Source of the DNA: a virus
DNA: 50,351 nucleotides
Reading direction: 5' to 3' (one strand)
Virus record (IMG/VR): IMGVR_UViG_3300025325_000036
Location: 1 to 50,351 of that record
This document shows positions 16,413 through 50,351 of this stretch, one piece after another. The translations under genes and the position numbers were made by a program. Each line of letters opens with the position of its first letter. The first letter of the stretch is position 1. The notes beneath the pieces are model-generated. The model had not been told where the DNA came from. It saw only the letters and a program-made list of their open reading frames with translations, and made no database searches.

Positions 16413-16413
16413 C

Positions 16414-18111: not shown

Positions 18112-18135
18112 ACCACAAGCTCACATGAGGCGGTA

Positions 18136-19532: not shown

Positions 19533-19557
19533 GCCAAACCTTTTTTAGAACTACGGC

Positions 19558-19586: not shown

Positions 19587-19632
19587 GTCGTGCATGGGAA
19601 CGACGAACCACCACCGATCCGAGGAGGTCACA

Positions 19633-19776: not shown

Positions 19777-19892
19777 TGGATGGAATCTGCAAGTGCGGCC
19801 ACGCCTACGACGACCACGACTGCTACTTCGGCGGTGAGGGTGGCGGGTTCTGTTTGATGCCCCGCTGTCCCTGCCAAGCGTTCGACGGATGA
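19776..19892 (+). CDS. Cys-rich mini-protein, 38 aa
   Basis: A short frame between overlapping stop/start pairs encodes six cysteines and several histidines: C-K-C-G-H near the start, D-H-D-C in the middle, and C-L-M-P-R-C-P-C near the end. It is a likely zinc-binding mini-protein. Its small size leaves room for doubt, but the coupling on both sides supports it. Confidence 0.5.
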   Translation: MDGICKCGHAYDDHDCYFGGEGGGFCLMPRCPCQAFDG

Positions 19893-20080
19893 CGCTCGAG
19901 TTCGGCGTCCACGTCAACGTCCAGCGGGTGAGCGGCAAGTTCGTCTCCCGCGACGACATCGCCGACGCCATCCTCGAGGCGCTGGACCAGGCCATCTCGG
20001 ACTTGGACCTCGCAGGCCTGGGGGTCGACGGTGATAGCGAGTACGAGGTGGTGGAGTCCAATGTGGAGCCGGGGTCGTGA
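19889..20080 (+). CDS. Hypothetical acidic protein, 63 aa
   Basis: The ATG overlaps the preceding TGA. It has a strand start (EFGVHVNVQRVSGKF) followed by a helix with D-D-I-A-D-A-I-L-E-A-L-D-Q-A and an acidic C-terminus. It looks like a compact alpha/beta domain. No family is recognised. Confidence 0.55.
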   Translation: MTLEFGVHVNVQRVSGKFVSRDDIADAILEALDQAISDLDLAGLGVDGDSEYEVVESNVEPGS

Positions 20081-20140
20081 CCCTGGAGCCGTGTGAGCGC
20101 CGCCCTGCGGCCCGCTGCGGCCCGGTAGCCTTCCACCCCG

Positions 20141-21082
20141 GTGTATGACGCCCACGCCTCCCGGGTCCAGTACGTGGACCACCTGGCGCCCGTGTGGCGG
20201 GCTCTGCCGGGCCGGGCCTTCACCGTCGCCGACTCTGCCCTGGTTCGACGGGCGTCGGCGCGCGGCGTCACCGCGCGGGTGGGCGCGCCGGCGGGCGACC
20301 TGCCGGTGCTGGTGGCCTCGCACCGGGACGAGCTGTTGGTGCCGGGGCCGATTCTTTTCCTCGAGCACGGGGCGGGCCAGCACTACGGCGGGGTCGATGC
20401 CAGCGGGGAGGGCGTCGGCCGGCCCCGGGTGGTGCTGTACCTGGCGCCGAACCCCGCGGTGGCCGCCCGCACCGGCGCGGTCATGCCCAACGCCTGCACG
20501 GCGGCGGTGGGCTGCCCCAAGCTGGACCGCTGGCTGGGCTGGGTGCCCAGCGGCCGGCCCGAGCCGGTGGTGGGCCTGGCCTGGCACTGGCCCAGCCGCA
20601 GCTGGCCGGAGGCCATGTGGGCCTATCCCCACTACCGCGGCGTCCTCGCCCCCCTGGCGCGCCGGTATCGGGTGCTGGGGCACGGGCATCCCCGGGTCTT
20701 CGGGCATCTCATCTCGGATTACCGGCGGGCGGGGATCGAGGCGGTGGCGGACCCCGAGCAGCTGCTCACCAACATCGACCTGCTGGTGGCCGACAACACC
20801 TCGGTGCTGTTCGAGGCGGCCGCCGTCGGGCTTCCGGTGGTGGTGCTGGACGCCCCGTGGTACCGGCGGGGGGTCGAGCACGGGCTGCGGTTCTGGACCT
20901 GGGCGGACGTGGGGCCCCGCATAGGCCGGGCCGCCGACCTGGCGGGGGCGGTGGAACGGGCGTGGGCCGAGCGGGAGGCCTACCGGCCGGTCCGCGAGGC
21001 GATGCGGGCGGAGGTGTACGGGGCCTGGGACGGGCGGGCGGCCCAGCGGGCGGCCCAGGCCATCTCCGAGGCGATAGGCTGA
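20141..21082 (+). CDS. TagF/CDP-glycerol glycerophosphotransferase-like GT-B protein
   Basis: The second half of this 313-aa protein resembles the glycerophosphotransferase fold of teichoic-acid polymerases: F-L-E-H-G-A-G-Q-H-Y (compare the HG motif), A-V-G-C-P-K-L-D-R, and N-I-D-L-L-V-A-D-N-T-S-V-L-F-E-A-A-A-V-G-L-P-V-V-V-L-D. It lacks the membrane-binding N-terminal region of full TagF, and the substrate could be another nucleotide-activated group. It starts at GTG 20141. Together with the GT4 gene it makes a small glycan-transfer cluster. Confidence 0.65.
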   Translation: MYDAHASRVQYVDHLAPVWRALPGRAFTVADSALVRRASARGVTARVGAPAGDLPVLVASHRDELLVPGPILFLEHGAGQHYGGVDASGEGVGRPRVVLYLAPNPAVAARTGAVMPNACTAAVGCPKLDRWLGWVPSGRPEPVVGLAWHWPSRSWPEAMWAYPHYRGVLAPLARRYRVLGHGHPRVFGHLISDYRRAGIEAVADPEQLLTNIDLLVADNTSVLFEAAAVGLPVVVLDAPWYRRGVEHGLRFWTWADVGPRIGRAADLAGAVERAWAEREAYRPVREAMRAEVYGAWDGRAAQRAAQAISEAIG

Positions 21083-21086
21083 GAGG

Positions 21087-21175
21087 GCCGGGCGGCGCGG
21101 CAGCACGGGGGAGGTGCGCCCCGACGCTCAATCGGGGAGGCCGTGGGTTCGGAATCCCGCCCGCGAGGCCCGGCA
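21087..21175 (+). other. Cloverleaf-like structured element, tRNA-like remnant or leader RNA
   Basis: GCCGGGC (21087-21093) pairs perfectly with GCCCGGC (21168-21174). Inside are GGCGC/GCGCC (21094-21098/21116-21120), CCGA/TCGG around a 7-nt loop (21121-21135), and GTGGG/CCCGC around TTCGGAAT (21143-21160), close to a T-arm. But the T-loop has 8 nt, seven extra bases precede the 3' acceptor strand, and the base before the anticodon-like triplet is not T. It is therefore not a functional standard tRNA. It lies in the 136-bp gap before the virion gene at 21219. Confidence 0.3.
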
Positions 21176-21218
21176 CTGACCCCTCCGGCGCGGTGCGCCC
21201 CCCTACCATCGGTTGTCG

Positions 21219-22100
21219 ATGGCTCGCCTTCGTGCTTTGGTCCGCCCCCCGTTGCCCGAGTCGCTGCGCGGCAACCTGGTCTCGGCCGTGGGTACCGTCG
21301 AGGTGCCGACCGAACGGTGGCGGGGCCAGGGCATCACCTACCGGCCCCACCGCTACGTCGCCGGCGCCGCCTACGCCGTGGACCCCGATTGCGGCCCCCA
21401 CACCACCCCGACCGTCGCCCCGCCGGCCCTGGTGGAGTGGGACGACGTGGTGCTGACCTGGGAGGAGACCTGCGCGGCCTTCACGCCGGCTGACCTGGCC
21501 GACCTGCGCGAGCGGGTGCGGCAGGATTTCGAGGCGCAGTTCAGCCACAAGCTGGAGGGGGTGCTGTGGACCAACAAGGTGGGCGGGGTTGACCTGGCGA
21601 CCAGCCACCCCAACGTCGGCCTCGCCTCCACCGGGGTATCAACCCTGGTCTTCGGGGACCCGGTGGGGGTGATGACGGCCTGGCGTGGCTTGCTGCGCCG
21701 TATGTCGACGTGCCTGGGTGGGGCCCGGGGCGTGATTCACGTTCCCCAGTGGTCCACCGGCTATCTGGACTATTACGGGTTGATCATCAAGGAGGGAACC
21801 CGGCTGGTGGGCACCAGCTCGGACCACATCGTGGTGGCCGGCACCGGCTACACCGGCTCGGGGCCGGGCGACGTGGCCCCGGCGGCCGGCAACGCCTGGT
21901 TCTACGCCACCAGCATGGTGGAGGTGCGGCGCGGCGCGGTGGAGGTGCCGGCGCTGGACCCCGAGAACGTCGACCGGGTCGACAACTCCGTGGCCGTCTA
22001 CGGAACGGCCCCCGCCCTGGCATCCTGGGACCGGGCTTGCCACCTGGCCGTCGAGGTCTGCTTGGAGGACCCGGGCCCGCTCTGCGCCGAAGGGTCCTGA
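21219..22100 (+). CDS. Putative virion structural protein after capsid
   Basis: A 293-aa product starts MARLRALVRPPLPES. Proteins with this start are common just after capsid genes in actinophages, in my recollection, as head-associated or capsid-like proteins. The middle has G-A-R-G-V-I-H-V-P and a long strand-rich region G-T-S-S-D-H-I-V-V-A-G-T-G-Y-T-G-S, and the end is acidic. It could belong to a second encapsulin-like or minor capsid component. A TTG at 21213 is an alternative start. Confidence 0.55.
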   Translation: MARLRALVRPPLPESLRGNLVSAVGTVEVPTERWRGQGITYRPHRYVAGAAYAVDPDCGPHTTPTVAPPALVEWDDVVLTWEETCAAFTPADLADLRERVRQDFEAQFSHKLEGVLWTNKVGGVDLATSHPNVGLASTGVSTLVFGDPVGVMTAWRGLLRRMSTCLGGARGVIHVPQWSTGYLDYYGLIIKEGTRLVGTSSDHIVVAGTGYTGSGPGDVAPAAGNAWFYATSMVEVRRGAVEVPALDPENVDRVDNSVAVYGTAPALASWDRACHLAVEVCLEDPGPLCAEGS

Positions 22101-22109
22101 GGTGGACTG

Positions 22110-23123
22110 ATGGCCGTCCTCCGCGTCTGTGGGTTCGACACCCTTCCGGCGGCACCCTATCCGTTCGCTGCTGGCGTCGGAGGGTCTATCGGCTCCGCTC
22201 TGCGGGTCGGTCATGGGGGCTCTTGGGCCTATAACGGCGAGGCCATCGTTCTCGGAGCGGCCGAGGAGGACGACTTCATCGTGCTCGGCTCAGATATTCA
22301 ACCCAACGTGAGCACCCGCGGGTGGGCTTTTCGAGGTGACGATGGCGCGGTTACCCATCTCTCGGTGGTCTACGACAGCACGCTGAGTAGATGGCAGGTG
22401 TACCGAGGAACGATCGCTGGTACCCTCTTGGGTTCGAGCCCGGCCAACTCTCACGTTGGAGGATCGACGGTCAAATACCTTGAGGTCAGGTTCCGGATCG
22501 CAGATGCCGCGGCGGGGTTCGTGGGATTGTGGTTGGACAATGTTCAGGTGCTCGACCTGACGGGAATCGACACCAGGAACGGGGGGGTGGACGCCCTGAT
22601 CGACAACATCGTCCCCGCCACTGTTGCCCTCCTGAACATCGACAACCTGATCGTCATCAACGAGCAGGCTGGCAACGGAGCAGTCGATCGGGTCGGATCA
22701 ATCTTCGTGCCGGCCAAGCGTCCCAACGGCAACGGGGCCACCACGACCTGGGACGGCTCCGACGGCAACCAGATCGACAACTACCTCCTGGTCGACGACC
22801 CCGCCTCTAACAATGACGGCGACACCACCTTCGTCGAGACCTCCGTTGCCGAGCTGGAGCAATATCTAATCGCCGACATTTCGGAGACCCCGGTGACGAT
22901 CGTGGCGGTCGACGCCATCTTGATCGCCAGGGATTCACTGGCGGGCGGCAACTCGGCGCGACCCGGGATGCGGGTCAACGGCACGAACTACCCCGGGGCC
23001 ACCGCCGTTCTCACCGGCTCCTACGCGGCCTACGGGAAGGTGTGGGGCGTCTCGCCCGACACCGGGGTGGCCTGGACCCGGGCCGAATACAACGCCTCCG
23101 AGCTTATCAACGAATCGCTGTAG
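22110..23123 (+). CDS. Virion protein with lectin-like jelly-roll domain
   Basis: The first 200 residues of this 337-aa protein alternate strands in the manner of concanavalin/LamG-type folds (W-A-F-R-G-D-D-G-A-V-T-H-L-S-V-V-Y-D, Y-L-E-V-R-F-R-I, V-G-L-W-L-D-N-V-Q). The C-terminal 130 residues, with S-I-F-V-P-A-K-R-P-N and R-P-G-M-R-V-N-G, match a family often found as minor tail or appendage proteins. It is probably a surface-exposed carbohydrate-binding virion component. Confidence 0.65.
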   Translation: MAVLRVCGFDTLPAAPYPFAAGVGGSIGSALRVGHGGSWAYNGEAIVLGAAEEDDFIVLGSDIQPNVSTRGWAFRGDDGAVTHLSVVYDSTLSRWQVYRGTIAGTLLGSSPANSHVGGSTVKYLEVRFRIADAAAGFVGLWLDNVQVLDLTGIDTRNGGVDALIDNIVPATVALLNIDNLIVINEQAGNGAVDRVGSIFVPAKRPNGNGATTTWDGSDGNQIDNYLLVDDPASNNDGDTTFVETSVAELEQYLIADISETPVTIVAVDAILIARDSLAGGNSARPGMRVNGTNYPGATAVLTGSYAAYGKVWGVSPDTGVAWTRAEYNASELINESL

Positions 23124-23132
23124 GCAGGCGGC

Positions 23133-24077
23133 ATGGCTCGCCGCACGACCCAAGAACTCGCCGAGGTAGCGCTTCAGTCGGCCCTGCGCCGCACCACGCA
23201 AGAACTTGCCGAAGTGGCGCTTCAATCGACCCTGCGCCGCACCACCCAGGAACTCAGCGAGGTCGCGCTTCAATCGACGCTGCGCCGGACCACTCAGATT
23301 CTCTCCGAGGTGGCGATCCTGGTCGCCTCCCTGCCCCTTTCGGAGACCTTCACCGGCACCAACGGGGCAGCGTGGAATAACGACAACTGGGTCACCTCCG
23401 CAGCGAGCGGCGGCGGATCGGTCACCATCCAGACCAACCGGGGTCGGGAATCCGGTACTGCCGGGGTCGCCAACTCGGGGGGTCGGGCAGTATCCCGTAA
23501 AGGCGGTCGGGTCAACCAGGAGGTAACCGGCGACCTCCAATTGTGCGACACCACCGAGCCCTGTCGAATCGACCTCTGGCTCCGGGCTTCCGGGGATTGG
23601 ACCGGGCTGGACACTCCCACCGACGGTTACGGAGTGCGGTTGCCCGCCGACTCCTCGACCGCCCAACTGATCAAATCGGTGGCAGGTGTCGAGACGGTCC
23701 TGGCCTCAGCCACCTGGCCACGCGATCTGGTCTTGAAGTCGTGGCGGTTCCAGACCTTGGGTGTGAATATCCGGTTTCGCATCTGGAACCAAGCCGACGC
23801 CGAACCAACCACCTGGCTATTCGACGTCCAGGATTCCAGCACCGGGGGGGTGGGCGTGTTCCAAGTCGCCTACGTCTGCCCGACCGCGCCCACTGGTGGA
23901 ACCTGTGCCGATTATGACAACATCGGCGGGAACGACCTTTACGCTGCTCTCGGTTCCGCCTCACCACGAGGAACGGCCTCGGGCACCGTTGTTGTGCCAT
24001 CTGTGCCTCCGCCCTCGGGTGGGACCGGCGAGTCCCGGCCCGCTCGGGCCGTCCGCCGACGGCGGCGCCGGGGCTGA
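23133..24077 (+). CDS. Virion/fibre protein with four 16-residue N-terminal repeats
   Basis: This 314-aa protein starts with four near-identical repeats of R-R-T-T-Q-E-L-A-E-V-A-L-Q-S-(A/T)-L, probably a helical oligomerisation stem. A strand-rich domain follows, F-T-G-T-N-G-A-A-W...W-V-T, a lectin/jelly-roll-like pattern seen in phage appendages, with L-W-L-R-A-S-G-D-W and G-Y-G-V-R-L-P. It ends with a Pro/Ser linker and an Arg-rich tail. It is probably a trimeric fibre or receptor-contact protein. Confidence 0.6.
   Translation: MARRTTQELAEVALQSALRRTTQELAEVALQSTLRRTTQELSEVALQSTLRRTTQILSEVAILVASLPLSETFTGTNGAAWNNDNWVTSAASGGGSVTIQTNRGRESGTAGVANSGGRAVSRKGGRVNQEVTGDLQLCDTTEPCRIDLWLRASGDWTGLDTPTDGYGVRLPADSSTAQLIKSVAGVETVLASATWPRDLVLKSWRFQTLGVNIRFRIWNQADAEPTTWLFDVQDSSTGGVGVFQVAYVCPTAPTGGTCADYDNIGGNDLYAALGSASPRGTASGTVVVPSVPPPSGGTGESRPARAVRRRRRRG
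23139..23330 (+). repeat. 48-bp coding tandem repeat, four copies
   Basis: Four consecutive 48-bp units encode the RRTTQEL(A/S)EVALQS(A/T)L stem. The copies differ mostly at synonymous positions, showing an old duplication kept by selection on the protein; the fourth is more diverged (ILSEVAILVASL). Confidence 0.85.
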
Positions 24078-24115
24078 CCCTTTGCCGGGGACGTCCGGCA
24101 TTACGCTTCGGCCCC

Positions 24116-24742
24116 GTGAGCGACTTCTCTGACTTTCTCGAGCTCGAGATTCTTGACCACATCCTCGGCACCACCGACTATCCGTTGCCGGTGCCCTTCT
24201 GGTCCCTCCACAACGGCCACCCGGCGGAGACCGGGGCCAACGAGCTGACCGGGGGTTCCTATGCCCGCCAAGCGATAGCCTTCGGGGCTGCCGCCGCCGG
24301 TGCTGCCGCCAATACCGCGGTCGAGGAGTGGGACCTCACCGGGGTCACCGGGTCGACCATCTTCTTCCTCGGGGAATGGGATGCCGTCAGCGGGGGCAAC
24401 TTCATGTGGGCCGTACCCCTTGGTGGCACCCCGGCCACCTTTGTCGCCACCAACGCCGGCGACGTCTTCACTTCTTACGCCCACGGGTACTCGAACGACG
24501 ACCGCGTCTATCTCAAGCGGGCTTCGGGTTCGGCCCTCCCGGCCGGACCATCCGAAGACACGCTCTACTTCGTGATCTCGGTGACGGCCGATACCTTCCA
24601 AATCTCCACAACCCAAGGTGGCGGCGCCGTGGTCCTTACCACCGATGGGGAGGGGATCGCGGTCCGGGTCGTCGGCAAGGCGTTTAACCCCGGCGACCTG
24701 TTCCGGGTGGGAATTGGCGACCTCGACGTAGCGATCGACTGA
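24116..24742 (+). CDS. Putative tail fibre/appendage protein, 208 aa
   Basis: The product starts SDFSDFLELEILDHILGTTDYPLP, then W-S-L-H-N, G-A-N-E-L-T-G-G-S-Y-A-R-Q-A-I-A-F-G-A-A. This is the pattern of a widespread phage virion family with an L-G-T-T start and a G-G-S-Y-A-R-Q core. A second strand-rich part (W-A-V-P-L-G-G-T-P, F-Q-I-S-T-T-Q-G-G) follows. It starts at GTG 24116; TGATG couples it to the next gene. Confidence 0.65.
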   Translation: MSDFSDFLELEILDHILGTTDYPLPVPFWSLHNGHPAETGANELTGGSYARQAIAFGAAAAGAAANTAVEEWDLTGVTGSTIFFLGEWDAVSGGNFMWAVPLGGTPATFVATNAGDVFTSYAHGYSNDDRVYLKRASGSALPAGPSEDTLYFVISVTADTFQISTTQGGGAVVLTTDGEGIAVRVVGKAFNPGDLFRVGIGDLDVAID

Positions 24743-25218
24743 TGGCCCGCGGCATCTATACCGTCACGTTCTCGCAGGTGTCCTTCACCACAGCAGGGAC
24801 TACCTGGGATTTCTTCGAGTTTGATGCCGCAGCCGACAAGCCCATCGAGCTTATGAGCGTGTTCATCGGCAACAAGACCGAGGTCGGTGACGCAGCGGAG
24901 GAGATGGTTGCTTACGCCATCATCCGTGGGCACACGACGACCGGTAGCGGCGGTGCGGCCGTAACGCCGAGACCGCTCGATCCCTCCGATGGTGCTGCGT
25001 CCTTTGCTGCCGAGGCCGCCAATGACACGATCGCCTCGGCAGGTACTGCACTGTTCCTCCACGAAGATACCTTCAACGTCCGAACTGGGCTTCAACTGAT
25101 TCTGCCTCCGGACATGCGGTCCATCACCCGCGGTGCCGACCTGTTGGTCGTGAGGATGCTGTCCACGTTGACAGATGATGTGACTTTCTCTGGAACCGCT
25201 TACGTTCGAGAGTTGTAG
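24742..25218 (+). CDS. Virion-associated protein, 158 aa
   Basis: It begins MARGIYTVTFSQVSFTTAG and has alternating strands with a W-D-F-F-E-F segment and an acidic middle, then L-F-L-H-E-D-T-F-N-V and a C-terminal T-F-S-G-T-A-Y-V-R-E-L. Its position and beta-rich character suggest a minor tail or decoration protein. No specific function is recognised. Confidence 0.55.
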   Translation: MARGIYTVTFSQVSFTTAGTTWDFFEFDAAADKPIELMSVFIGNKTEVGDAAEEMVAYAIIRGHTTTGSGGAAVTPRPLDPSDGAASFAAEAANDTIASAGTALFLHEDTFNVRTGLQLILPPDMRSITRGADLLVVRMLSTLTDDVTFSGTAYVREL

Positions 25219-25230
25219 GCGGGGTGGCCG

Positions 25231-25944
25231 ATGGCCTCCCCGGTGGTCGTCAGTCGCAGCACACCTTCGGCGGTAACCACCGCCGGAACCAGCCATACCG
25301 TCAACCTCCCCGGCTCGCTGGTAGCAGGGAACCGGCTCGAGATTCTCTTTGCGGTCATGGCCCCGACCGCCACCCCATCGGCGACCAACTGGACCCACGA
25401 CACCGCCTTCGTCACCACCGTCGGAACTGCTCAGGCGGTCCATCGCCTGTTCAAGATATCGAACGGGGCGGAGGGTGCCACGGTCACGGTCACCACTACC
25501 GCCAGTACCAAGAGCGCCCACACCGCCTATCAGATATCGGGGGGTGGTGAGGGGTACGGAGGCACCGGAGCGACCGGCACCTCCGGACCCAACACGGCCA
25601 ATCCGCCCTCGGTGTCAGTGGTGGGCGGTCCGAAAGATGTGTTGTCGATCGCGGTGATGGCGATCGAGGGGGAAGTATTCACCGGGACCGGGGCGCCTGC
25701 CTCCTACACGAACCTACTGACGGCCAACACCGGGACCGGCGGGGCGGTGACCGTCAACGGGATGATTCAGACCGCCGAGCGGGCCGAAACCGCGGTCTCG
25801 ACGGTTGATCCGGCTGTGTTCTCGCACACCGCCAACGATGACTGGGTGGCCCAAACGCTGGTTATCCCCCAACAAGAGAGCATTGCTTTTCCTCGCAATG
25901 ATCGAAAGACCGTCCCAATGAGGGTGCCCGAGGTGTCCTGGTGA
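25231..25944 (+). CDS. Beta-rich virion protein, 237 aa
   Basis: It is Thr/Ala/Gly-rich with regular strands (A-S-P-V-V-V-S-R, H-T-V-N-L-P-G-S-L-V-A-G-N-R-L-E-I-L-F-A-V) typical of surface-appendage proteins from phages and secreted proteins. A Gly-rich hinge is near residue 105. The stop overlaps the start of the repeat protein gene. Receptor or glycan contact is inferred from context only. Confidence 0.55.
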   Translation: MASPVVVSRSTPSAVTTAGTSHTVNLPGSLVAGNRLEILFAVMAPTATPSATNWTHDTAFVTTVGTAQAVHRLFKISNGAEGATVTVTTTASTKSAHTAYQISGGGEGYGGTGATGTSGPNTANPPSVSVVGGPKDVLSIAVMAIEGEVFTGTGAPASYTNLLTANTGTGGAVTVNGMIQTAERAETAVSTVDPAVFSHTANDDWVAQTLVIPQQESIAFPRNDRKTVPMRVPEVSW

Positions 25945-40780: not shown

Positions 40781-40809
40781 TTGACGCGCTGCCCACCCCG
40801 TGGTACAGT
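40781..40809 (+). promoter_or_regulatory. SigA-like promoter P4 (TTGACG-17-TACAGT), leaderless
   Basis: TTGACG (40781-40786), a 17-bp spacer ending GTGG, and TACAGT (40804-40809) are followed by six bases and ATG 40816, the gene start. There is no room for a Shine-Dalgarno sequence, so translation from the transcript's 5' end is the simplest reading. Confidence 0.8.
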
Positions 40810-40815
40810 GTCGGC

Positions 40816-41148
40816 ATGGGAACGACGCTGAAATCCTACGCCGGAATTCTGACCTGGCGGGTCGACCTAAACCTCATCGATCTGGCCGTGCGCCGGTGCT
40901 TAGAGGCGGTGCGTCTGGTGCGGGTGGGCGACCCCTTCTCCTGGTTCGAGGCCGAATTGATGCGCATGGCCGAGCCCGACGGCGACGACGCCGCCCGGCT
41001 GGCCTATTGGGCCTGTCACCGCATTCCCTCCGGCATCGGGCTGGGGCTGGCGCATCGGGCCTACGACTGGGAGCGCAGCCGGGCCACGGTGGCGGTGCTG
41101 CTGCGGCTGCGGCGCCGACGCTTGCGGGTCCGCGCGGAGCGGTTATGA
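40816..41148 (+). CDS. Hypothetical protein from a leaderless transcript, 110 aa
   Basis: It starts MGTTLKSYAG, where ATG-GGA-ACG-ACG is the shared start element of this phage's promoters. The product is helical, with a Leu/Arg-rich N-terminal half (D-L-A-V-R-R-C-L-E-A-V-R-L-V), W-F-E-A-E-L-M-R-M and a C-terminal Arg-rich helix. No family is recognised. It opens the accessory operon after the terminator. Confidence 0.65.
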   Translation: MGTTLKSYAGILTWRVDLNLIDLAVRRCLEAVRLVRVGDPFSWFEAELMRMAEPDGDDAARLAYWACHRIPSGIGLGLAHRAYDWERSRATVAVLLRLRRRRLRVRAERL

Positions 41149-41555
41149 CCAGCCGGCACTCCGAGCAGTTCCTGCGGGCGACCCTGGCCCGCTACTACGA
41201 CGCCGAGGCCGGCCGGCTGCTGGAGGTGAGCCGCGAGCGGGCCCGGCAGATGCGGCTCGAGATGGGCGTGCCGCGTCCCCCCGACCGCCGGTCGGTGACC
41301 CGCAAGCGGGTGGTGGAGCTGCTGCGCCAGGGGGTAGCTCCCAAGGTGGTGGCCCGGGCGGTGGGGCACGACCCCAGCTGGGTCCGCAAGATCGGGCGGG
41401 CGGCGGGGTGGAAACCCCGGCCGGCCGCGCTGGCCCCCTGCGGAACTCGGGCCGCCTACGAGCGGCATCGGCGCCGGGGGGAAGCGGTAGACGTTGAGTG
41501 CAACGCCGCCAACAACGCGCGGCGACGGGAACGACGACGAGGAGGTGCGAGGTGA
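41145..41555 (+). CDS. HTH DNA-binding protein with C-terminal Cys motif
   Basis: This 136-aa basic protein has two HTH-like helices: V-S-R-E-R-A-R-Q-M-R-L-E-M-G-V and V-V-E-L-L-R-Q-G-V-A-P-K-V-V-A-R-A-V-G...W-V-R-K-I. The C-terminus, A-P-C-G-T-R-A-A-Y-E-R-H-R-R-R-G-E, resembles a motif common in actinophage regulators, which usually has CxxC after it; here only a single later Cys is left (E-C-N-A-A-N-N). It could be a transcription regulator of this operon. Confidence 0.6.
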   Translation: MTSRHSEQFLRATLARYYDAEAGRLLEVSRERARQMRLEMGVPRPPDRRSVTRKRVVELLRQGVAPKVVARAVGHDPSWVRKIGRAAGWKPRPAALAPCGTRAAYERHRRRGEAVDVECNAANNARRRERRRGGAR

Positions 41556-42469: not shown

Positions 42470-43089
42470 CCTGTCCATACCGCAAGCGCACCTGCGCGCC
42501 GGTGTCCGTGGTCGGGGCCGCCGGCCTTCTGTACGACCTGTGGACCACCGCCGAGGTCTGGCTGCACCGCCACGACCATCGCCGGTGCTTGCCGGCGGGC
42601 GCCGGTTGGTGGCACCCCGACGATGATCCCGTTGATCTGCACCTGGAGCCGGAGGTTTACACCTACGCCCGACACCCCCTGCAGCTGCGGTGGCCCGGGG
42701 CCTGGCGGGTGGTGGCGTCGTCGCTGTTGCTGGTCAAGACCAGCCGGCACCAGGTCGAACTGGTGACCGAGGCGCTGTTCCGGCGCTACGCCGAGCCGGT
42801 GGACCTGCGGATGGCGGAGGGTGAGCTAGAGCGGCTGCTGGGACCCCTGGGCCTGGCCGCCAACCGGGCCCGCTACCTGCGGGCGATGGGCCTGGCCTGG
42901 CATCAGTTGGTTGAACCCCTGGGCGTGAGGCCGCCGGCGGAGTTCGTGGCGGGCCTGCCCGGCTGCGGCCCCTACGTGGTCCAGGCCTATCGCATCTTCG
43001 CCCTGGGGGAGAACCTTGAGCCGGAGACGGTGGGCGACCCCGTGCTGCGGCTGCACCTGGAGTTGCGGCGGGCTAGGGTGCCGCGGTGA
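42466..43089 (+). CDS. HhH-GPD DNA-glycosylase-fold protein lacking the usual catalytic Asp
   Basis: From residue 75 this 207-aa protein matches the helix-hairpin-helix GPD superfamily of base-excision glycosylases: W-R-V-V-A-S-S-L-L-L-V-K-T-S, L-G-L-A-A-N-R-A-R-Y-L, and the hairpin F-V-A-G-L-P-G-C-G-P-Y-V-V-Q-A-Y-R-I-F (161-178). MBD4-like relatives have Asp in G-x-Y-x-x-D-A-Y-R-I-F; here it is Gln173. An Asp further on (V-G-D-P) may or may not replace it. It may be a binding-only protein for modified or mismatched bases, or a divergent enzyme. GTG 42466. Confidence 0.65.
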   Translation: MTCPYRKRTCAPVSVVGAAGLLYDLWTTAEVWLHRHDHRRCLPAGAGWWHPDDDPVDLHLEPEVYTYARHPLQLRWPGAWRVVASSLLLVKTSRHQVELVTEALFRRYAEPVDLRMAEGELERLLGPLGLAANRARYLRAMGLAWHQLVEPLGVRPPAEFVAGLPGCGPYVVQAYRIFALGENLEPETVGDPVLRLHLELRRARVPR

Positions 43090-43607
43090 CCCGACGGCAT
43101 CTGAACAACCGCGTGCCACGACACAAGCGTGTGTCCAAACGGGAGCGGGATGCTCGGGCGCTGGCCTTCGCCGCCACCCTGCTGCAGAGGGCCCTGGCGG
43201 GGGGGCATACGGTGGTGGGCGTCTTCCCGGTGGAGGGTGGCGGAGTTTCCTATCACTTCGCTTACACGGTGGGCCGGTGCCTGCGGGGCTGGCCCGAGCT
43301 GATCGCCACCGGCGTTTCCAACCTGGGCGACGCGCTGCTGAACTGGGTCGACGCTCACTGGGATGCTCACCCCGGCCCGGGGGTCCGCTGGCCGGTGTCC
43401 GAGGGCGCCATCATGACCGTGCCGGTGCCCGAGGACCAGCGTGACGACCACCTGACCATGGTGCAATCGCTGCGGTTCGGGCCGGGCGTGCCGGCGGACT
43501 GGTCCGCCTTGCAGGTGGTGTGGCGGACCGACGCCGGCCTGTGGCCCTGGGACCTCTCGGACCCGACCCTGCCGGTGCTGGCCGGCCCGGACTGGCGGCC
43601 GGCGTGA
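43086..43607 (+). CDS. DUF4262-like protein
   Basis: This 173-aa protein has G-V-S-Y-H-F-A-Y-T-V-G-R, W-P-E-L-I-A-T-G-V-S, V-Q-S-L-R-F and L-Q-V-V-W-R-T-D-A-G-L-W-P-W-D, which follow the DUF4262 pattern (FAYT+GL...HPEL...LQ+VWPD..G.WPWD). DUF4262 proteins are widespread in actinobacteria and their phages; the function is not known. It is coupled to the glycosyltransferase gene. Confidence 0.75.
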   Translation: MTRRHLNNRVPRHKRVSKRERDARALAFAATLLQRALAGGHTVVGVFPVEGGGVSYHFAYTVGRCLRGWPELIATGVSNLGDALLNWVDAHWDAHPGPGVRWPVSEGAIMTVPVPEDQRDDHLTMVQSLRFGPGVPADWSALQVVWRTDAGLWPWDLSDPTLPVLAGPDWRPA

Positions 43608-44410
43608 CCATCACGGCGGAGGCCGTTCACGGCGGCGACATCGTGCGCCTCTCAGAGGAGGAAAAACGCGCTCTGGTCGAATCGTTTGAGGTCGACCCCC
43701 GATCTCGTCCCCCCGAGTTGTCGGTCTGCTGCCCCACCCGGGGCCGCCCCGACGCCTTCGGCGCCATGGTGGAATCGGCGTTCCTAGACCCGGGGGCGCG
43801 GGTGGAGGTGGTGGCGTACGTGGACGATGATGACCCGGCGCTGGACCTCTACCGCTCGGTGGTCGCCGGCTGGGCCGAGGTGCGCCTGGTGGTGGGGCCC
43901 CGCCAGGTGCTGAGCGGGTGCTGGAACGACTGCGCCGCCGTCGCCCGGGCCCCGTTGCTCATGCTGGGCGCCGACGACCTGCGCTTCCGCACCTGGGGCT
44001 GGGCCGACGTGTTCAGCCGTACCTTCGCCGCCTTGCCCGATCGCATCGCCTACGCCTACGGGCGGGACGGCCACTGGGACCGCGTGCTGGGCACCCACGG
44101 GGTGGTCAGCACGGCTTGGGTTGAGGCGGTGGGGTACTTCTGCCCCCCCCACTTCGGCTACGACTACAACGACGCCTGGCTGCACGAGGTGGCGCGGGAG
44201 GTGGGCCGGGCCGTCTACCTGCCCTCGGTGCTGACCGAGCACATGCACCCGGCCTTCGGCAAGGGTGCCTGGGACCAGACCCACGCCGACCGGGCCCGCT
44301 GGGGCCCCCAGGAGGCCATGGACCTGCTGTACGGCTCGCTGGTGGTCGAGCGGCAGGCCGACGCCCGCAAGCTGCTGACGGCGATGGGCGACCCGTTGGA
44401 CGGTGACTGA
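43604..44410 (+). CDS. GT-A-type glycosyltransferase
   Basis: This 268-aa protein has L-S-V-C-C-P-T-R-G-R-P-D-A-F (the start of GT-A folds), V-V-A-Y-V-D-D-D-D-P, a G-C-W-N-D segment, and M-L-G-A-D-D-L-R-F (DxD-type divalent-metal site), followed by an acceptor region with F-G-Y-D-Y-N-D-A-W-L. It probably uses a nucleotide-sugar. With the methyltransferase and dehydrogenase that follow it forms a sugar-decoration cluster; the acceptor is not known. Confidence 0.75.
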   Translation: MTITAEAVHGGDIVRLSEEEKRALVESFEVDPRSRPPELSVCCPTRGRPDAFGAMVESAFLDPGARVEVVAYVDDDDPALDLYRSVVAGWAEVRLVVGPRQVLSGCWNDCAAVARAPLLMLGADDLRFRTWGWADVFSRTFAALPDRIAYAYGRDGHWDRVLGTHGVVSTAWVEAVGYFCPPHFGYDYNDAWLHEVAREVGRAVYLPSVLTEHMHPAFGKGAWDQTHADRARWGPQEAMDLLYGSLVVERQADARKLLTAMGDPLDGD

Positions 44411-44512
44411 GGAGGTCGCCTGAGTTAACAAATAGGTCAAAAGTCGAACGAAATTGTGAAGGAGAAATGACCGAATGCTTGAGCGCTCAGCTGTTGTGAG
44501 GGTGGGTTCCTG
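44411..44512 (+). promoter_or_regulatory. Low-GC intergenic stretch with a possible leader peptide
   Basis: It is clearly poorer in GC than its surroundings (TTAACAAATAGGTC and AAAGTCGAACGAAATTG). It includes GAAGGAG-AA-ATG (44467), which would open a 10-codon peptide, and overlapping short frames running into ATG 44513. This may be a promoter or translational control region for the methyltransferase-dehydrogenase pair. No clear -35/-10 pair is visible. Confidence 0.35.
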
Positions 44513-45091
44513 ATGGGCTCGGACGCCTATCTCCTGGTCGACCGGGCGCCGTCCGGCGCGCTGCTGCTGGAGGTGGGAACCGGGCGTTGGTCCACGCCGC
44601 AGCTGGCCCGTTTCGCCGAGGCGCGGGGCACGGCGCTGTTCACCGTTGACCCGAACTCCCAGGCGCTCCTGTGGGCCGCGGAATTTCGGGCGGCGGTGCC
44701 GGTGCTGGCGCGGGCCGAGGCGTGGCTGCCGCCCATGCGATACCTGGCCTTCGGCTTCGCCTGGCTGGACGGGTCCGACTGGCCCTACCCGGACCTGCTC
44801 CCCGGCTACGAGCGGGACGTGCGGCTGCGGTACGAGGAGCTGGGCCTGGAATATTCGGCGGAGGCCTCCGCCGCCTCGCACCTGGCGATCGCTCGAGCCC
44901 TGGCGCCCATGCTGGTGCCCGGCGCCGTGGTGGTCTTCGACGACACCTGGTTCGGGGATTGGGGCGGGCCTGACCTTGACGGCAAGGGTCGTGACGCGGT
45001 GCCCTACCTGCTGGGCCAGGGATTGGCGTTGTTCGACGATGTTCCCGACGGGCCCGGCCACCAGGGCTACGTGGCGCTGGTGGTGCCATGA
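44513..45091 (+). CDS. SAM-dependent methyltransferase-like protein
   Basis: This 192-aa protein begins with a sugar/antibiotic-methyltransferase-like pattern: L-L-L-E-V-G-T-G-R-W-S-T, then L-F-T-V-D-P-N, and later V-V-V-F-D-D-T-W-F (metal-binding Asp pair) near residue 145. It fits class I methyltransferases of the type acting on sugars or small hydroxyl groups. ATG 44513; it is coupled to the dehydrogenase gene. Confidence 0.6.
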   Translation: MGSDAYLLVDRAPSGALLLEVGTGRWSTPQLARFAEARGTALFTVDPNSQALLWAAEFRAAVPVLARAEAWLPPMRYLAFGFAWLDGSDWPYPDLLPGYERDVRLRYEELGLEYSAEASAASHLAIARALAPMLVPGAVVVFDDTWFGDWGGPDLDGKGRDAVPYLLGQGLALFDDVPDGPGHQGYVALVVP

Positions 45092-46386
45092 GGATCGGGT
45101 GGATCGGGCTGGGTCGCCTGGGGCTGCCCTGCGCCGCCGTGCTGGCGACCCGGCACCGGGTGCGGGGCTACGACCCGCGGAAGCCGGCGCTCGGTCCCTG
45201 GGAGGCGGGGCTGGGCGACCTGTTGGACGAGGTGGGGTTGCCGCCCGCCACCTTCGGCCACATCATGCGAGAGGTCCTGGACGGCACCACTCGACAGGAG
45301 TACTTGGTCTCCGTTGACTCGCCGGCTGAGGCGGTCGAGGGCGTCGATGCCGTGTTCGTGGCGGTGCAGACCCCGCACGAGCCGGCGCTGGACGGCACCC
45401 ATCCCGACGATGGTACCCGGGCGGACTTCGAGTACGGGTACCTGTTGCAGGCGGTGCGGGAGGTGGTGCCGCACATGAAGCCCGGGGCAGCTCTGGTCAT
45501 CGTTTCCACCGTGCTGCCCGGCACCACCGAGCGGCTGATCCGGCCGCTGGTGCCGCCCTGGGTCACCCTGGTCTACTCGCCGAGCTTCATCGCCCTGGGC
45601 TCCGCCATAGCCGACTACCGCAACCCTGAGGTCATCCTGTGTGGGTCTTCATCCGCCGATCGCGAGCGGGCCGTGGGCGTGCTGTGGGAGGTCTTCGACG
45701 GGGTGGTGCAAGGCGGTCCTGGGCACCTGATCTACGCCTGCTCGATTCCCTCGGCTGAGCTGGCAAAGGTGGCGTACAACACGTTCATCGGGGCCAAGCT
45801 GGCCTTCGCCAACACCGTGGCGCAGCTGGCCGACGCCACCGGGGCCGACGCCGACGAGGTGCTGGGGGTGGTGAAGCGGGCGACCGACCGGCTCATCTCC
45901 CCCGCCTACCTGTCGGCCGGCCTGGGCGACGGCGGGGCCTGCCACCCGCGGGACCAGCTGGCCCTGTCCTGGCTGGCCCGTCGCGTCGGGGCCTACGACC
46001 TGTTCTCGGACCTGATCGCCCAGCGCGAGGCGCACTCGGCCTGGATCGCCGACGTGGTGGCCCACTGGGCGAAGATGAGCGGGTTGCCGGTGGTGCTGTT
46101 GGGCACCGCCTACAAGGCCGGGTCCACCTTGGACGACGGCTCCCCCGCCCTGCTGCTGTTGAGCCAGATCGCCACTCGGTTGTCCGCGGCGGCGCAAGAC
46201 CCGCTGGTCTTCTCCGACCGGACCCTTCCCCCTTCCGGGACGGGGCGGGCGGTCTATGTGCTGGGGGTGGCCCATGAGGAGTACCGGGAGTTGGACCCGG
46301 TCCCGGGCTCGGTGGTCATCGACCTTTGGGGCATCGTCCCGGCGCGGCCGGGGGTCACCCTGGTGAGGCCGGGGAGGCGAGGATGA
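45088..46386 (+). CDS. UDP-glucose/GDP-mannose dehydrogenase family protein
   Basis: This 432-aa protein has an N-terminal Rossmann fold (I-G-W-I-G-L-G-R-L-G-L-P), a central dimerisation helix with E-L-A-K-V-A-Y-N-T-F (K227, N231), and the catalytic loop G-G-A-C-H-P-R-D with Cys285 (in place of G-G-S/A-C-F-P-K-D). This is the layout of NAD-dependent four-electron dehydrogenases that make nucleotide uronic acids. The C-terminal domain carries Y-K-A-G-S...G-S-P-A. The product would be a sugar donor for the glycosyltransferases nearby. Confidence 0.8.
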   Translation: MRIGWIGLGRLGLPCAAVLATRHRVRGYDPRKPALGPWEAGLGDLLDEVGLPPATFGHIMREVLDGTTRQEYLVSVDSPAEAVEGVDAVFVAVQTPHEPALDGTHPDDGTRADFEYGYLLQAVREVVPHMKPGAALVIVSTVLPGTTERLIRPLVPPWVTLVYSPSFIALGSAIADYRNPEVILCGSSSADRERAVGVLWEVFDGVVQGGPGHLIYACSIPSAELAKVAYNTFIGAKLAFANTVAQLADATGADADEVLGVVKRATDRLISPAYLSAGLGDGGACHPRDQLALSWLARRVGAYDLFSDLIAQREAHSAWIADVVAHWAKMSGLPVVLLGTAYKAGSTLDDGSPALLLLSQIATRLSAAAQDPLVFSDRTLPPSGTGRAVYVLGVAHEEYRELDPVPGSVVIDLWGIVPARPGVTLVRPGRRG

Positions 46387-46949: not shown

Positions 46950-47092
46950 GGTACCGGCTGTCGGACCTCGTTCCTCACGAACCCCCGGGAGGCTGGTGGC
47001 GGCTGTTGCGGGGCGGGCCGCGGGCGTGGGGCGAGTACCTGTGGGCTGAGCGGTGCTATTTCCAGGACGTTCGACGGCGTGGCCGTGGCTGA
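46946..47092 (+). CDS. Small Trp/Arg-rich protein, 48 aa
   Basis: The GTG overlaps the preceding stop. The product has P-P-G-G-W-W-R-L-L-R-G-G-P-R-A-W-G-E-Y and an Arg-rich end. It overlaps the small-terminase start by 14 bases. There is no recognised family, but the coupling and position suggest a real small gene. Confidence 0.5.
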   Translation: MRYRLSDLVPHEPPGGWWRLLRGGPRAWGEYLWAERCYFQDVRRRGRG

Positions 47093-47705
47093 CGGCACGC
47101 CCTGGGAGCGCCAGAAGGGCGAGTCGACCAAGGCTTTCGAGGGGTTCCGCACCTATCGGGACTTGGGCGCCGGCCGGTCGCTGGTGGCCGCCGCCAAGGC
47201 CCTGGGCAAGAACAAGGCAGTGCTGTCGGAGTGGTCGATGCGCCACGAGTGGGTGCGGCGGGTCGACGCCCACGACGCCAACGAGGACCGGGTGCGCCGG
47301 GCCGCCCACCTGGCCGAGGTGGAGCGCATGGCTGCCCGCCACGCCACCGCCGCCCAGGCCACCCAGGAGGCCGTCATGGCCCCGGTGCGGGCCGTGCTGG
47401 AACGCCTGCGGGCCGACCGCGAGAAGGAGTCCACGGAATTCTTGGACGCCCTGACCTCGGGCTCCCCCGCCGCCGCCATGGAGCTGGCGCTGGCCTCCGC
47501 CGGTCGGCTGCCCGCCCTGCAGGCCGCCGAACGCCTGGCCCGGGGTGAACCCACCGAGATTATCCGGTCGGCCTCGGTGGTGGTGGAGGCCCGGTCGGTG
47601 GAGGACCTGGCGAAGACGGTGGAGGCGCTGGCGGTGGCCGGGGTATTGTCCCTGCCGCTGCCCGACCTCGAGGTGATCGAATCCCAGGAGGTGGAGACGG
47701 CATGA
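47079..47705 (+). CDS. Terminase small subunit
   Basis: The N-terminal 70 residues of this 208-aa protein match the HTH region of actinophage small terminases: G-E-S-T-K-A-F-E-G-F-R-T-Y-R-D-L-G-A-G-R-S-L, then L-G-K-N-K...L-S-E-W-S...W-V-R-R-V-D-A-H-D. The rest is coiled-coil-like, fitting an oligomeric ring that recognises packaging DNA. GTG 47079 (or GTG 47085). It is separated by two small genes from the large subunit. Confidence 0.75.
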   Translation: MAVADGTPWERQKGESTKAFEGFRTYRDLGAGRSLVAAAKALGKNKAVLSEWSMRHEWVRRVDAHDANEDRVRRAAHLAEVERMAARHATAAQATQEAVMAPVRAVLERLRADREKESTEFLDALTSGSPAAAMELALASAGRLPALQAAERLARGEPTEIIRSASVVVEARSVEDLAKTVEALAVAGVLSLPLPDLEVIESQEVETA

Positions 47706-47875: not shown

Positions 47876-48177
47876 TGGCGACCTACGAGGAGGTGGTCGC
47901 CAACGCGGTGGCCTGGCAGCGCCAGAAGCGCGAAGATGGCAAGCGGACCCGCTATGACGCCGCCTGGGCGCAGCGGTTCATCGGCGCCGGCTTGCACCCG
48001 GTGACCCGTCTGTCGTTGCGGGGTGACGCCGAGACGTGCGGGACCTGCATTCATGCCGTGGAGGTGGGCGGGCACGCCAGGGACTATTGGAAGTGCGACC
48101 TGCGCATCACGTCATCCGAGGCCACCGATATACGGCTGCGATGGCCGGCTTGCGTGAAATGGCACCCGAAGGGGTGA
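47875..48177 (+). CDS. Zinc-binding protein between terminase genes, 100 aa
   Basis: It begins MATYEEVVANAVAWQ and has a C-terminal C-G-T-C-I-H-A-V, K-C-D-L and D-I-R-L-R-W-P-A-C pattern, a CxxC...C...C arrangement. I recall phage proteins of this type annotated as hypothetical, with the P-A-C-x-x-W end. It may be a packaging accessory. Confidence 0.6.
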   Translation: MATYEEVVANAVAWQRQKREDGKRTRYDAAWAQRFIGAGLHPVTRLSLRGDAETCGTCIHAVEVGGHARDYWKCDLRITSSEATDIRLRWPACVKWHPKG

Positions 48178-49547
48178 CGGCCTGGGCTGAGCGCATAACG
48201 GCCCTGCCCGTCGACCGGCGCGCCGCTCTGGAGCGGGCGCTGTCGGTGGAGTTGCCCCGCTACGTGCCGGTGCGGCCGTTCCCGAAGCAGATGGCGGCCC
48301 TGCTGCTGGTGGACTGCCTGGAGGTGCTGTACGGGGGGGCGGCGCGGGGGGCTAAGACCTGGTGGTTGCTCATGGAAGCGCTGCGCTACGCCGACCGCCG
48401 GGGGTACGGCGCCCTGCTGCTGCGGAACACCATGACCGACCTCGAGCAGGAGCCCGACGGGTTGGTCCCGCTCTCGAAGACCTGGCTGGAGGACACCGAC
48501 GCCGCCTGGCACCCGGGCAAGGGGGGCGGGGGCTACTGGCGGTTCCCCGCCGGCGCCACCCTGTCGTTCGGGTACCTGAAGGACGCCGACGATCACCGCC
48601 GCTACAAGGGCGTGGCCTGGCAGATGATCGGTATCGACCAGGCCGAGGAGATCAGGTCGGCCCAGTACCTCTACATGTTCAGCCGCCTCACCCGTCCGGC
48701 GGGCTCCGACCTGCCCCTGCGGTTCCGGGCCACCGCCAATCCCGGGGGGCGGGCCCACGACTTCTTGGTCGAGCGGTTCGACCTGCTGGCGCAGGGCCCC
48801 GATCCCCGCACCGGCCGGGCCTTCATGCCGGCGCGGCTCGAGGACAACCCCGGGGTGGACCAGGCCGCCTACGAGCGGTCGCTGGCCGAGCTGCCGGAGG
48901 TCGAATACGCCCAACTGCGTCACGGCGACTGGGGGGTGACGGTGGCCGGGGCCATGTTCAAGGTCCAACACCTGGCCGCCGCCATGGACTGGCCCAGGGA
49001 GGCCAGGCTGGTGCGGGCCTGGGACCTGGCGGCCACCGAGGCCGTGCCGGGCACCGACCCCGACTACACGGTGGGGGTGCTGCTGGCCCGCCGGGGCGAG
49101 GAGGAGTGGGTGGTGGACGTGATGCGGGACCGGGTGGCGCCCGACGGGGTCGACCGGATGATGGCCGCCGCCGCCCTGGGGGACGGTCAGAACGTGCCCA
49201 TCGTGGTCGAGCAGGAGGGGCGGTCGGCGGGCCGCCGCGAGGTGGCCGCCATACGCCGGGCCCTGCGGGGTCACCGGGTGTACGGGGTGCCGCCGGTGGG
49301 GACCAAGCCCGAGCGGGCGGCACTGGCGGCCAAGTGGGTGAACACCGGGCGGGTCTACCTGCTGCCGGGCGCCTGGGTGCCCGAGTTCGTGTCGGAGCTG
49401 CGGTCGTTCCCGCAGCGGTCGGGCCACGACGACCAGGTGGACGCCTTCGCCCTGGCCCATAATTGGCTCGACGGCCGTGGGCAGGGCCTGGCGGTGGGGG
49501 GCCAGATAGCCGCCGGCCGGATACCGGAGGAGCAGAGCATGGGCTGA
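48174..49547 (+). CDS. Terminase large subunit
   Basis: The ATPase domain of this 457-aa protein has Walker A G-G-A-A-R-G-A-K-T (54-62), a Walker B segment M-I-G-I-D-Q-A-E-E-I (D155, E158), and an A-T-A-N-P-G coupling motif. The C-terminal RNase H-like nuclease has R-A-W-D-L-A-A-T-E with D-P-D-Y-T and a terminal G-H-D-D-Q-V-D-A-F. It powers DNA packaging and cuts the concatemer. GTG 48174 is chosen because it overlaps the preceding stop; ATG 48141 or 48159 are alternatives. The TGA (49545) is followed by an open frame of 55 codons. Confidence 0.85.
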   Translation: MTAWAERITALPVDRRAALERALSVELPRYVPVRPFPKQMAALLLVDCLEVLYGGAARGAKTWWLLMEALRYADRRGYGALLLRNTMTDLEQEPDGLVPLSKTWLEDTDAAWHPGKGGGGYWRFPAGATLSFGYLKDADDHRRYKGVAWQMIGIDQAEEIRSAQYLYMFSRLTRPAGSDLPLRFRATANPGGRAHDFLVERFDLLAQGPDPRTGRAFMPARLEDNPGVDQAAYERSLAELPEVEYAQLRHGDWGVTVAGAMFKVQHLAAAMDWPREARLVRAWDLAATEAVPGTDPDYTVGVLLARRGEEEWVVDVMRDRVAPDGVDRMMAAAALGDGQNVPIVVEQEGRSAGRREVAAIRRALRGHRVYGVPPVGTKPERAALAAKWVNTGRVYLLPGAWVPEFVSELRSFPQRSGHDDQVDAFALAHNWLDGRGQGLAVGGQIAAGRIPEEQSMG

Positions 49548-49715
49548 GGCGAGACCAAGGTCCGCCCCGAGGACCGGGCCGCGCTGGAGGCGCGGCGAAA
49601 GCGAGACGAGGAGTACGCCCGGGCGCAAGCCGGGGTGCGGCGACGCCGCGAGGCCGAGGCGCGGGCGCGCTACGCTGCCCGACAGGAGGAACGACGAACG
49701 AGGAGGAGAGGATGA
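49548..49715 (+). CDS. In-frame Arg/Glu-rich extension after terminase stop
   Basis: The terminase frame continues past the TGA for 55 sense codons, rich in Arg, Glu and Ala, to TGA 49713-49715. No ATG, GTG or TTG occurs in this frame before GTG 49635. GGAGGAG-ATG (ATG 49539) lies before the stop, and reading on from it would need readthrough of, or a change in, the TGA. The copy at 1-138 is 97-98% identical over its first 120 bases, with most changes synonymous. It may be a readthrough tail, a mutated fused gene, or a sequencing error at the TGA. Confidence 0.5.
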   Translation, partial: GETKVRPEDRAALEARRKRDEEYARAQAGVRRRREAEARARYAARQEERRTRRRG

Positions 49716-49912
49716 TCTCCGAATATCGACAGCGAGCCCTGTGGCGCGGCGGCGGACTCAGCTGGCCGATCCGTCTGCGGCTGCTGCTGCTCATACCGGG
49801 TTCGCGGGCATGGAATGGGTGGGTTCGGAACTTCACCGCTCGGCTGGAAGGGTTCGCCAACTACGAGGCTGAGACGACCGAGCCCGAGGCCGTCCCGGCG
49901 CCCGAAGCATGA
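49712..49912 (+). CDS. Small protein with hydrophobic segment, 66 aa (absent from the copy at the start)
   Basis: ATG 49712 follows AGGAGGAG, preceded by GGAACGACGAACG. The product starts MISEYRQRALWRGGG, has a W-P-I-R-L-R-L-L-L-L-I-P segment, and an acidic tail with P-A-P-E-A. Its stop overlaps the metallopeptidase ATG. In the homologous stretch at 1-135 this gene is missing, so it is an insertion/deletion difference between the two copies. Confidence 0.6.
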   Translation: MISEYRQRALWRGGGLSWPIRLRLLLLIPGSRAWNGWVRNFTARLEGFANYEAETTEPEAVPAPEA

Positions 49913-50351
49913 GCGCCGCATATCTACCCGGCCAGGATGCTCGGCGGATCGCCGCCGACTTGATCCCGGCCCACCATCCCCACCTGGAGGACGCGCCCCT
50001 GCGGTACGTGCTGCGGGAGCCGCCAGCCAAGAAGAACAACCGGGTTCGCCTGGGCGTGGCCCGGGTGGTGTCCGGGCTGGGCGCCTACTTCGCCGGCACC
50101 ACCACCGCCCTGTCCGGGCGCCCCTCGCTGGGGTCCTTCGGCGTGGTGGAGCTGGCGGCGACGCACTGGAACGAGCTGCTGAACGACTCGCAGAGGCAGG
50201 CGCTGGTGGACCATGAGCTGTGCCACTTCGCCTATGACGGTGAGCGTCTGAGCATCATGGGGCACGACGTGGAAGAGTTCGAGGCGGTGATCCGGCGTCA
50301 CGGGCTGTGGTCCACCGACCTGTTCGACCTGGTATCGGCGGGGGCCGACCA
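49909..50351 (+). CDS. Second copy of putative metallopeptidase (truncated by window end)
   Basis: It is the same protein family as 135-605, with the H-E-L-C-H motif intact. By hand count about 24 of 443 bases differ, mostly at synonymous sites; visible changes include A8G, A47V, I64T, V74L, P76S, R97Q and T115S. It is cut by the end of the window. Either a duplicated gene or, more likely, the other end of a circular genome from a slightly different strain. Confidence 0.75.
   Translation, partial: MSAAYLPGQDARRIAADLIPAHHPHLEDAPLRYVLREPPAKKNNRVRLGVARVVSGLGAYFAGTTTALSGRPSLGSFGVVELAATHWNELLNDSQRQALVDHELCHFAYDGERLSIMGHDVEEFEAVIRRHGLWSTDLFDLVSAGAD

Follow-up and report, generated by a model that had tools for sequence, protein, structure and literature searches.

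Which sugar does a phage activate when its nucleotide-sugar dehydrogenase departs from residues reported as invariant, and which enzyme uses the product? The question is raised by a single IMG/VR virus record (IMGVR_UViG_3300025325_000036) of 50,351 bases with a G+C content of 71%, herein called the window. Three consecutive genes at its positions 43604-46386 encode a glycosyltransferase, a methyltransferase-like protein, and the dehydrogenase. The original prediction placed these genes correctly: all three are open frames with coding-like codon usage and have homologs. It further took the dehydrogenase for a uridine diphosphate (UDP)-glucose dehydrogenase (UGDH)-like enzyme supplying a uronate donor. 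That identity did not hold up, as the protein lies outside the canonical group and two invariant residues are replaced; a uronate product is presumptive. We favor, with moderate confidence, a nicotinamide adenine dinucleotide (NAD)-dependent nucleotide-sugar dehydrogenase of a new group that feeds the glycosyltransferase, so that the cassette would make and use one activated sugar.

Fold and domains of the dehydrogenase

The dehydrogenase gene (45088..46386, + strand) encodes 432 amino acids, and its start codon overlaps the stop codon of the methyltransferase gene (ATGA). The product matches UDPG_MGDP_dh_N (PF03721) with 59.4 bits and UDPG_MGDP_dh (PF00984) with 67.9 bits, both exceeding the cutoff, and PHROG 9148 with an E value of 8e-62. 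The latter family is matched by all 43 members scanned of the clade described below. PF03720, the UDP-binding C-terminal domain, has no match in the window protein and is matched by 31 of these 43 members, and the fold aligns over the full length. The structural model has a predicted local distance difference test score (pLDDT) of 89.7, and its best match in the PDB is the UGDH 3vtf with a Z score of 37.6.

This whole-length UGDH fold, together with a retained catalytic Cys, Lys, Asn, and Asp, is what an ordinary, merely diverged UGDH making UDP-glucuronate for the neighboring glycosyltransferase would show. The score against NCBIfam TIGR03026 (150.4 bits, under the cutoff of 189.8) speaks against such an enzyme. 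So do its position outside the canonical clade and the replacement of residues that are invariant in 229 sequences of three characterized groups, including changes beside the catalytic Cys in 143 of 143 sequences. We consider an ordinary UGDH unlikely, although it deserves to be kept in mind.

A remodeled active site

Across 229 nucleotide-sugar dehydrogenases of all three characterized groups, 18 residues are invariant (PMC4794789). These were examined in 143 sequences of the remodeled clade, viral and cellular and including the window, vs 44 canonical enzymes. The underlying similarity set comprises 80 viral loci collected by similarity, 58 cellular loci collected by profile, and canonical enzymes from 16 of these cellular genomes. 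In the following, canonical positions are named first, with the window residue in brackets. The remodeled clade retains 16 of the 18 invariant residues, among them the catalytic Thr118 (Thr141), Lys204 (Lys227), Asn208 (Asn231), Cys260 (Cys285), and Asp264 (Asp289). The two that are replaced are Glu141 and Asn287. Glu141 is mostly Phe or Tyr and sometimes Ser, Ala, or Gln (Ser166), whereas Asn287 is Arg in all 143 sequences (Arg313). In addition, Glu145 is Met in 140 of 143 (Leu170), and Tyr10 is Lys in 134 of 143 (Arg10). The canonical segment NPEFxxEG thus has its counterpart in SPSFIALG (45577..45600, + strand), which holds the replacements of Glu141 and Glu145, corresponding to human E161 and E165.

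The catalytic loop reads GDGGACHPRD (45925..45954, + strand) with Cys285 as the nucleophile and Asp289 as the base; the motif GGACHPRD with Cys285 had been predicted exactly. The aromatic residue of the canonical GxGG motif is Asp, the residue at Cys+1 is His, and the residue at Cys+3 is Arg in 143/143 sequences, as are the Cys and the final Asp. Asp281, His286, and Arg288 of the window loop are hence the clade-specific residues. Glu141 and Asn287 are both present in 44/44 canonical enzymes, and no sequence of the similarity set with His at Cys+1 has Glu141 (the two-class sorting of this set used Glu141 itself, so the Glu141 count alone is partly circular).

Because of this sorting, and because the loci came from overall similarity, the comparison was repeated with a motif-only set of viral contigs, for which a DNA pattern encoding the catalytic loop was the sole criterion; its counts are among the matches listed. 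All 113 contigs with GDGGxCHPRD are without Glu141 and have Arg at position 287, whereas Glu141 is kept in 110/110 contigs with the canonical loop.

In a quick tree, the remodeled sequences form one largely viral clade outside the canonical group, with a Shimodaira–Hasegawa-like approximate likelihood ratio test (SH-aLRT) value of 100 and a long stem of 0.93. The window dehydrogenase groups with the viral locus L009, followed by other viral sequences and a sequence from the Streptomyces contig L131. The sister sequence comes from Candidatus Electryonea clarkiae and plausibly represents an intermediate state: it shares Lys10, Met145, and the Arg at Cys+3 with the clade, whereas its Glu141 and its loop with the aromatic residue are still canonical. 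By residues and tree, the remodeled clade is separate from the UDP-glucose, guanosine diphosphate (GDP)-mannose, and UDP-N-acetylmannosamine (UDP-ManNAc) dehydrogenases, and the window enzyme is, on the same grounds, not a canonical UGDH. No study of this clade was found in literature searches restricted to open-access articles.

The window member itself carries the rarer states Ser166 and Leu170 and a longer N-terminal domain, which could be expected of an inactive remnant or cargo without a role in the phage. Its frame is intact, the clade-invariant residues are retained, and its start overlaps the methyltransferase stop, all of which makes such a remnant exceedingly improbable.

One remodeled dehydrogenase of another virus (IMGVR_UViG_3300002925_000022; L073:6799-7851) contains a 351-residue intein directly before the catalytic Cys, with a match to LAGLIDADG_3 and an Intein_splicing match just short of the cutoff.

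The neighboring glycosyltransferase and methyltransferase

The glycosyltransferase gene (43604..44410, + strand; 268 amino acids) has a GTG start that overlaps the upstream stop. The product matches PHROG 14945 (phrog_14945, annotated as glycosyltransferase) with an E value of 2.7e-38. The window protein has no Pfam match and hence stays below the Glycos_transf_2 cutoff; its homologs match weakly. The AlphaFold model (pLDDT of 91.9) has its best PDB matches among GT-A enzymes, namely WrtF (Z score of 18.5 over 192 residues) and the chondroitin polymerase K4CP (Z score of 18.1), and many further GT-A entries match as well. Two acidic pairs that correspond to the metal/donor motif and would bind the metal, D74/D76 and D124/D125, are invariant across 33 homologs. 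Judged by the model and these residues, the product is a GT-A glycosyltransferase of the GT2-like type. Homologs are also carried by 63 Streptomyces phage records. Upstream lies a gene for a DUF4262 protein (43086-43607; 43 bits), which ends at the glycosyltransferase start codon.

The second gene (44513..45091, + strand; 192 amino acids) encodes a class I S-adenosylmethionine (SAM)-dependent methyltransferase-like protein with a motif I-like LLLEVGTG. In six groups of loci, a homolog lies close to the dehydrogenase, and one relative also matches Methyltransf_24. From its gene position, the protein is probably a sugar O-methyltransferase. The 102-nucleotide gap between the glycosyltransferase and methyltransferase genes (44411-44512) is richer in A+T than the genome and is a possible promoter.

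Distribution and gene neighborhood

Canonical and remodeled dehydrogenases are both common in viruses, as seen by motif scans of each class. The expectation that a phage-borne uronate-donor enzyme would be less usual is therefore not borne out. Among cellular genomes, the exact remodeled pattern occurs in at least 1 of 396 Actinomycetota genomes, a lower bound since the pattern missed Streptomyces A012304 (L131, G001), which has a remodeled gene. Cellular carriers hold several further nucleotide-sugar dehydrogenases, so the remodeled enzyme is additional to them and not a housekeeping one. In Rhizobium leguminosarum ATCC 14479, the remodeled member, WP_112908837.1, is plasmid-borne and has a class I methyltransferase gene nearby.

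In the similarity set, which is biased to relatives of the window, a homolog of the window glycosyltransferase lies near the dehydrogenase in 46 of 106 nonredundant groups, 23 of them within 60 nucleotides on the same strand. The original proposal of a phage-borne sugar-donor enzyme together with a glycosyltransferase in a probable actinophage is supported, and the pairing recurs at many loci. In several related phages, as in the window, the dehydrogenase gene is located between or beside the terminase subunits. Longer cassettes in five viral loci (L016, L022, L023, L029, and L075) contain a DegT aminotransferase, the remodeled dehydrogenase, and a homolog of the window glycosyltransferase, along with another, shorter dehydrogenase from the same superfamily.

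The neighborhoods of remodeled enzymes and canonical viral UGDHs were compared at 119 loci each, again among the matches listed. DegT aminotransferases (21 vs 5 loci) and carbamoyltransferases (18 vs 2) are more frequent near remodeled enzymes, and radical SAM genes are enriched as well. Epimerases of the short-chain dehydrogenase/reductase (SDR) type are fewer (20 vs 49). The excess of sugar-modifying neighbors, including the NadE-like ligases described next, speaks for the favored function.

NadE-like, amide-forming ligases occur at 10 remodeled loci and at no canonical locus. They bear on the idea of a different end chemistry, in which the enzyme goes no further than the aldehyde or hands the thioester acyl to an amine, yielding, for example, a uronamide. 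Tyr10, which is 98% conserved and to which the final thioester hydrolysis is assigned (PMC4794789), is Lys or Arg in the clade. The loss of Glu141 points in the same direction, as human UGDH with the equivalent Glu-to-Gln exchange (E161Q) was crystallized with the thiohemiacetal intermediate (PMC3184952, PDB 3KHU). The NadE-like proteins could, however, simply provide NAD or act once an ordinary uronate has been formed, His286 beside the Cys could serve as a base, and the window is without a NadE-like neighbor. We regard a different end chemistry as distinctly unlikely. The same low standing applies to a new nucleotide-sugar oxidoreductase that would release no free uronate but go only as far as the aldehyde or transfer the thioester to some acceptor, such as an amine, with its product channeled to a bound glycosyltransferase.

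Transfer of the C-terminal tail

The C-terminal tail of the window dehydrogenase (approximately residues 382-432; 46231..46383, + strand) is homologous to a segment that, in one group of related phages, is found on the N terminus of the homologous glycosyltransferase instead. At L059, L063/L068, L065-L067, and L079, the dehydrogenase lacks about 45 residues at its C terminus. The missing tail forms the glycosyltransferase N terminus at L059, L063/L068, L067, and L079 (tail profile E values of 1e-19 to 1e-22), as checked where the contig includes the glycosyltransferase start. The gene of the tailed glycosyltransferase lies 1-2.5 kb upstream of the shortened dehydrogenase, which is followed by an unrelated gene at L059, L063, and L079. 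A search of whole records revealed the same arrangement. Four to five weak matches to the dehydrogenase profile had been considered spurious; this was rejected, as they are glycosyltransferases bearing the dehydrogenase tail. The tail-moved dehydrogenases are 69-82% identical and hence relatives that reflect one event. The location of the tail suggests, at the level of sequence, that the two proteins meet and work together, with the glycosyltransferase completing the last domain of the dehydrogenase.

Proposed function

The dehydrogenase would bind NAD+ and a nucleoside diphosphate (NDP)-sugar, and the C6 alcohol would be oxidized via a thiohemiacetal and thioester on Cys285, using Thr141, Lys227, Asn231, Cys285, and Asp289. 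The site for sugar binding and thioester release appears to have been rebuilt by losing Glu141, Glu145, Tyr10, Asn287, and the GxGG aromatic residue and by gaining Asp281, His286, Arg288, Arg313, and Lys/Arg10. As a consequence, the enzyme probably acts on something other than plain UDP-glucose, or else it releases its product via other residues such as His286; UDP-glucose and glucuronate should not be assumed. What it forms is most likely an NDP-uronic acid or a derivative, perhaps a sugar nobody has identified. This product would be handed to the GT-A enzyme, and the two proteins probably associate. O-methylation of the sugar may be the task of the methyltransferase. The most likely acceptors would be virion proteins and the host surface, with about equal weight, whereas DNA ranks low.

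A DNA-base glycosylation pathway has a precedent in Bacillus phage SP-15, which has a UGDH and glycosyltransferases and bears phosphoglucuronolactone on a hypermodified uracil of its DNA (PMC5977210). The window encodes two other proteins for DNA modification: one of the Mom family (11345-12637; PF25680, 120 bits), whose C-terminal part weakly resembles YunG, and an N6/N4 DNA methylase (15037-16230). Neither of these needs a sugar, the SP-15 UGDH is canonical (NPEFLAEG, GFGGSCFPKD), and no thymidylate-synthase-like or hydroxymethylase gene was found when 29 window proteins were compared with PHROGs, a scan that did not include all small genes. Such a pathway is very improbable for the window.

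Several points weigh against a new dehydrogenase that feeds the glycosyltransferase. None of the solved structures falls inside the remodeled clade, and no assay of any member was found. Glu141 has a loop-holding role (PMC4794789), so that its loss may be structural and not chemical. The only family match of the methyltransferase, to Pfam Methyltransf_24, reaches 22.9 bits with a cutoff of 26.3. The tail transfer occurred once, within one group of phages, and is absent from the window. Streptomyces phages carry glycosyltransferase homologs where the dehydrogenase was not found. Finally, in the motif-only set, a homolog of the window glycosyltransferase accompanies 8/119 remodeled vs 1/119 canonical loci among the matches listed, which is a weak difference. 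This frequency rules out glycosyltransferase linkage as a universal rule and makes the pairing lineage-specific.

Separate transferases and the phage genome

Two further transferases, at 18262 and 20141, had been predicted to belong to the same pathway. Both are real: 18262-19272, just after the major head protein, encodes a GT4 glycosyltransferase (PF20706, 54 bits), and 20141-21082 encodes a cytidine diphosphate (CDP)-glycerol glycerophosphotransferase-like protein (Glyphos_transf, 25 bits with a cutoff of 22). They constitute a separate pair that is conserved in L417-L421, and in Streptomyces phage TurkishDelight, the GT4 homolog lies between the capsid and major tail genes. Of the 18 records in the GT4 set, one is a fragment of the same phage as the window. 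Searches of the 17 others yielded no dehydrogenase, and searches of 20 dehydrogenase-bearing records yielded no GT4 gene; positive controls worked, although many records are fragments and the negatives are hence weak. With no co-occurrence in 18 + 20 records, membership of the pair in the dehydrogenase pathway was rejected, with the same weakness. The pair may glycosylate the virion separately from the dehydrogenase module.

The window further encodes the small (47079-47705) and large (48174-49547) terminase subunits, the portal (3326-5578), the major head protein (16531-18111), a head–tail adaptor, a tape-measure-like protein, and a WhiB-like protein (40800-41555). WhiB proteins are known from actinobacteria. 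Because of this gene and because a related cassette adjoins a terminase gene in the Streptomyces contig L131, the host is likely actinobacterial as far as gene content indicates, and it is probably a soil bacterium. An imperfect direct terminal repeat (1-577 vs 49578-50351, 93-95% identity) points to a genome of about 49.6 kb that is probably circularly permuted and varies between strains where its ends join. Positions 12262-25269 are 100% identical over 13 kb to a second record of the same phage (L414, IMGVR_UViG_3300025327_000125), and a DNA-level search with a 5-kb region against 50,697 phage records gave no match.

Comparison with known systems

The remodeled clade shares the fold, the NAD site, the catalytic Cys, Lys, Asn, Asp, and Thr, and the N-terminal and central domains with the canonical UDP-glucose, GDP-mannose, and UDP-ManNAc dehydrogenases (PMC4794789). 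It differs from them in replacing Glu141, Asn287, Tyr10, and Glu145, in the Asp of the GxGG motif, and in His at Cys+1 and Arg at Cys+3. A phage-borne "UDP-glucose dehydrogenase" is already known from PHROG 9148; gp162 of Pelagibacter phage HTVC008M and gp227 of Synechococcus phage Bellamy belong to it and show the remodeled residues. These residues do not support the annotation of the family. At loci of the HTVC008M/Bellamy type, carbamoyltransferase and NadE-like genes are found among the neighbors. For pelagimyophages, genes of this kind have been interpreted as modifying the host O-chain (PMC7029224). Bacillus phage SP-15 resembles the window in combining a uronate-donor-type enzyme with nearby glycosyltransferases but differs in its canonical enzyme and its target, a hypermodified uracil. 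Virion glycosylation in actinophages is described for mycobacteriophages Che8 and Rita (cited in PMC11256854), with glycosyltransferases and capsid glycans, in an account that does not mention a dehydrogenase.

The label "UDP-glucose dehydrogenase" is the default in phage genomes and feeds claims on uronic-acid glycans and auxiliary metabolism. Since a widespread branch under this label is without residues reported as invariant, its substrate, and perhaps its chemistry, may differ. With cultured carriers at hand, namely phages HTVC008M and Bellamy and R. leguminosarum ATCC 14479, the question is directly testable.

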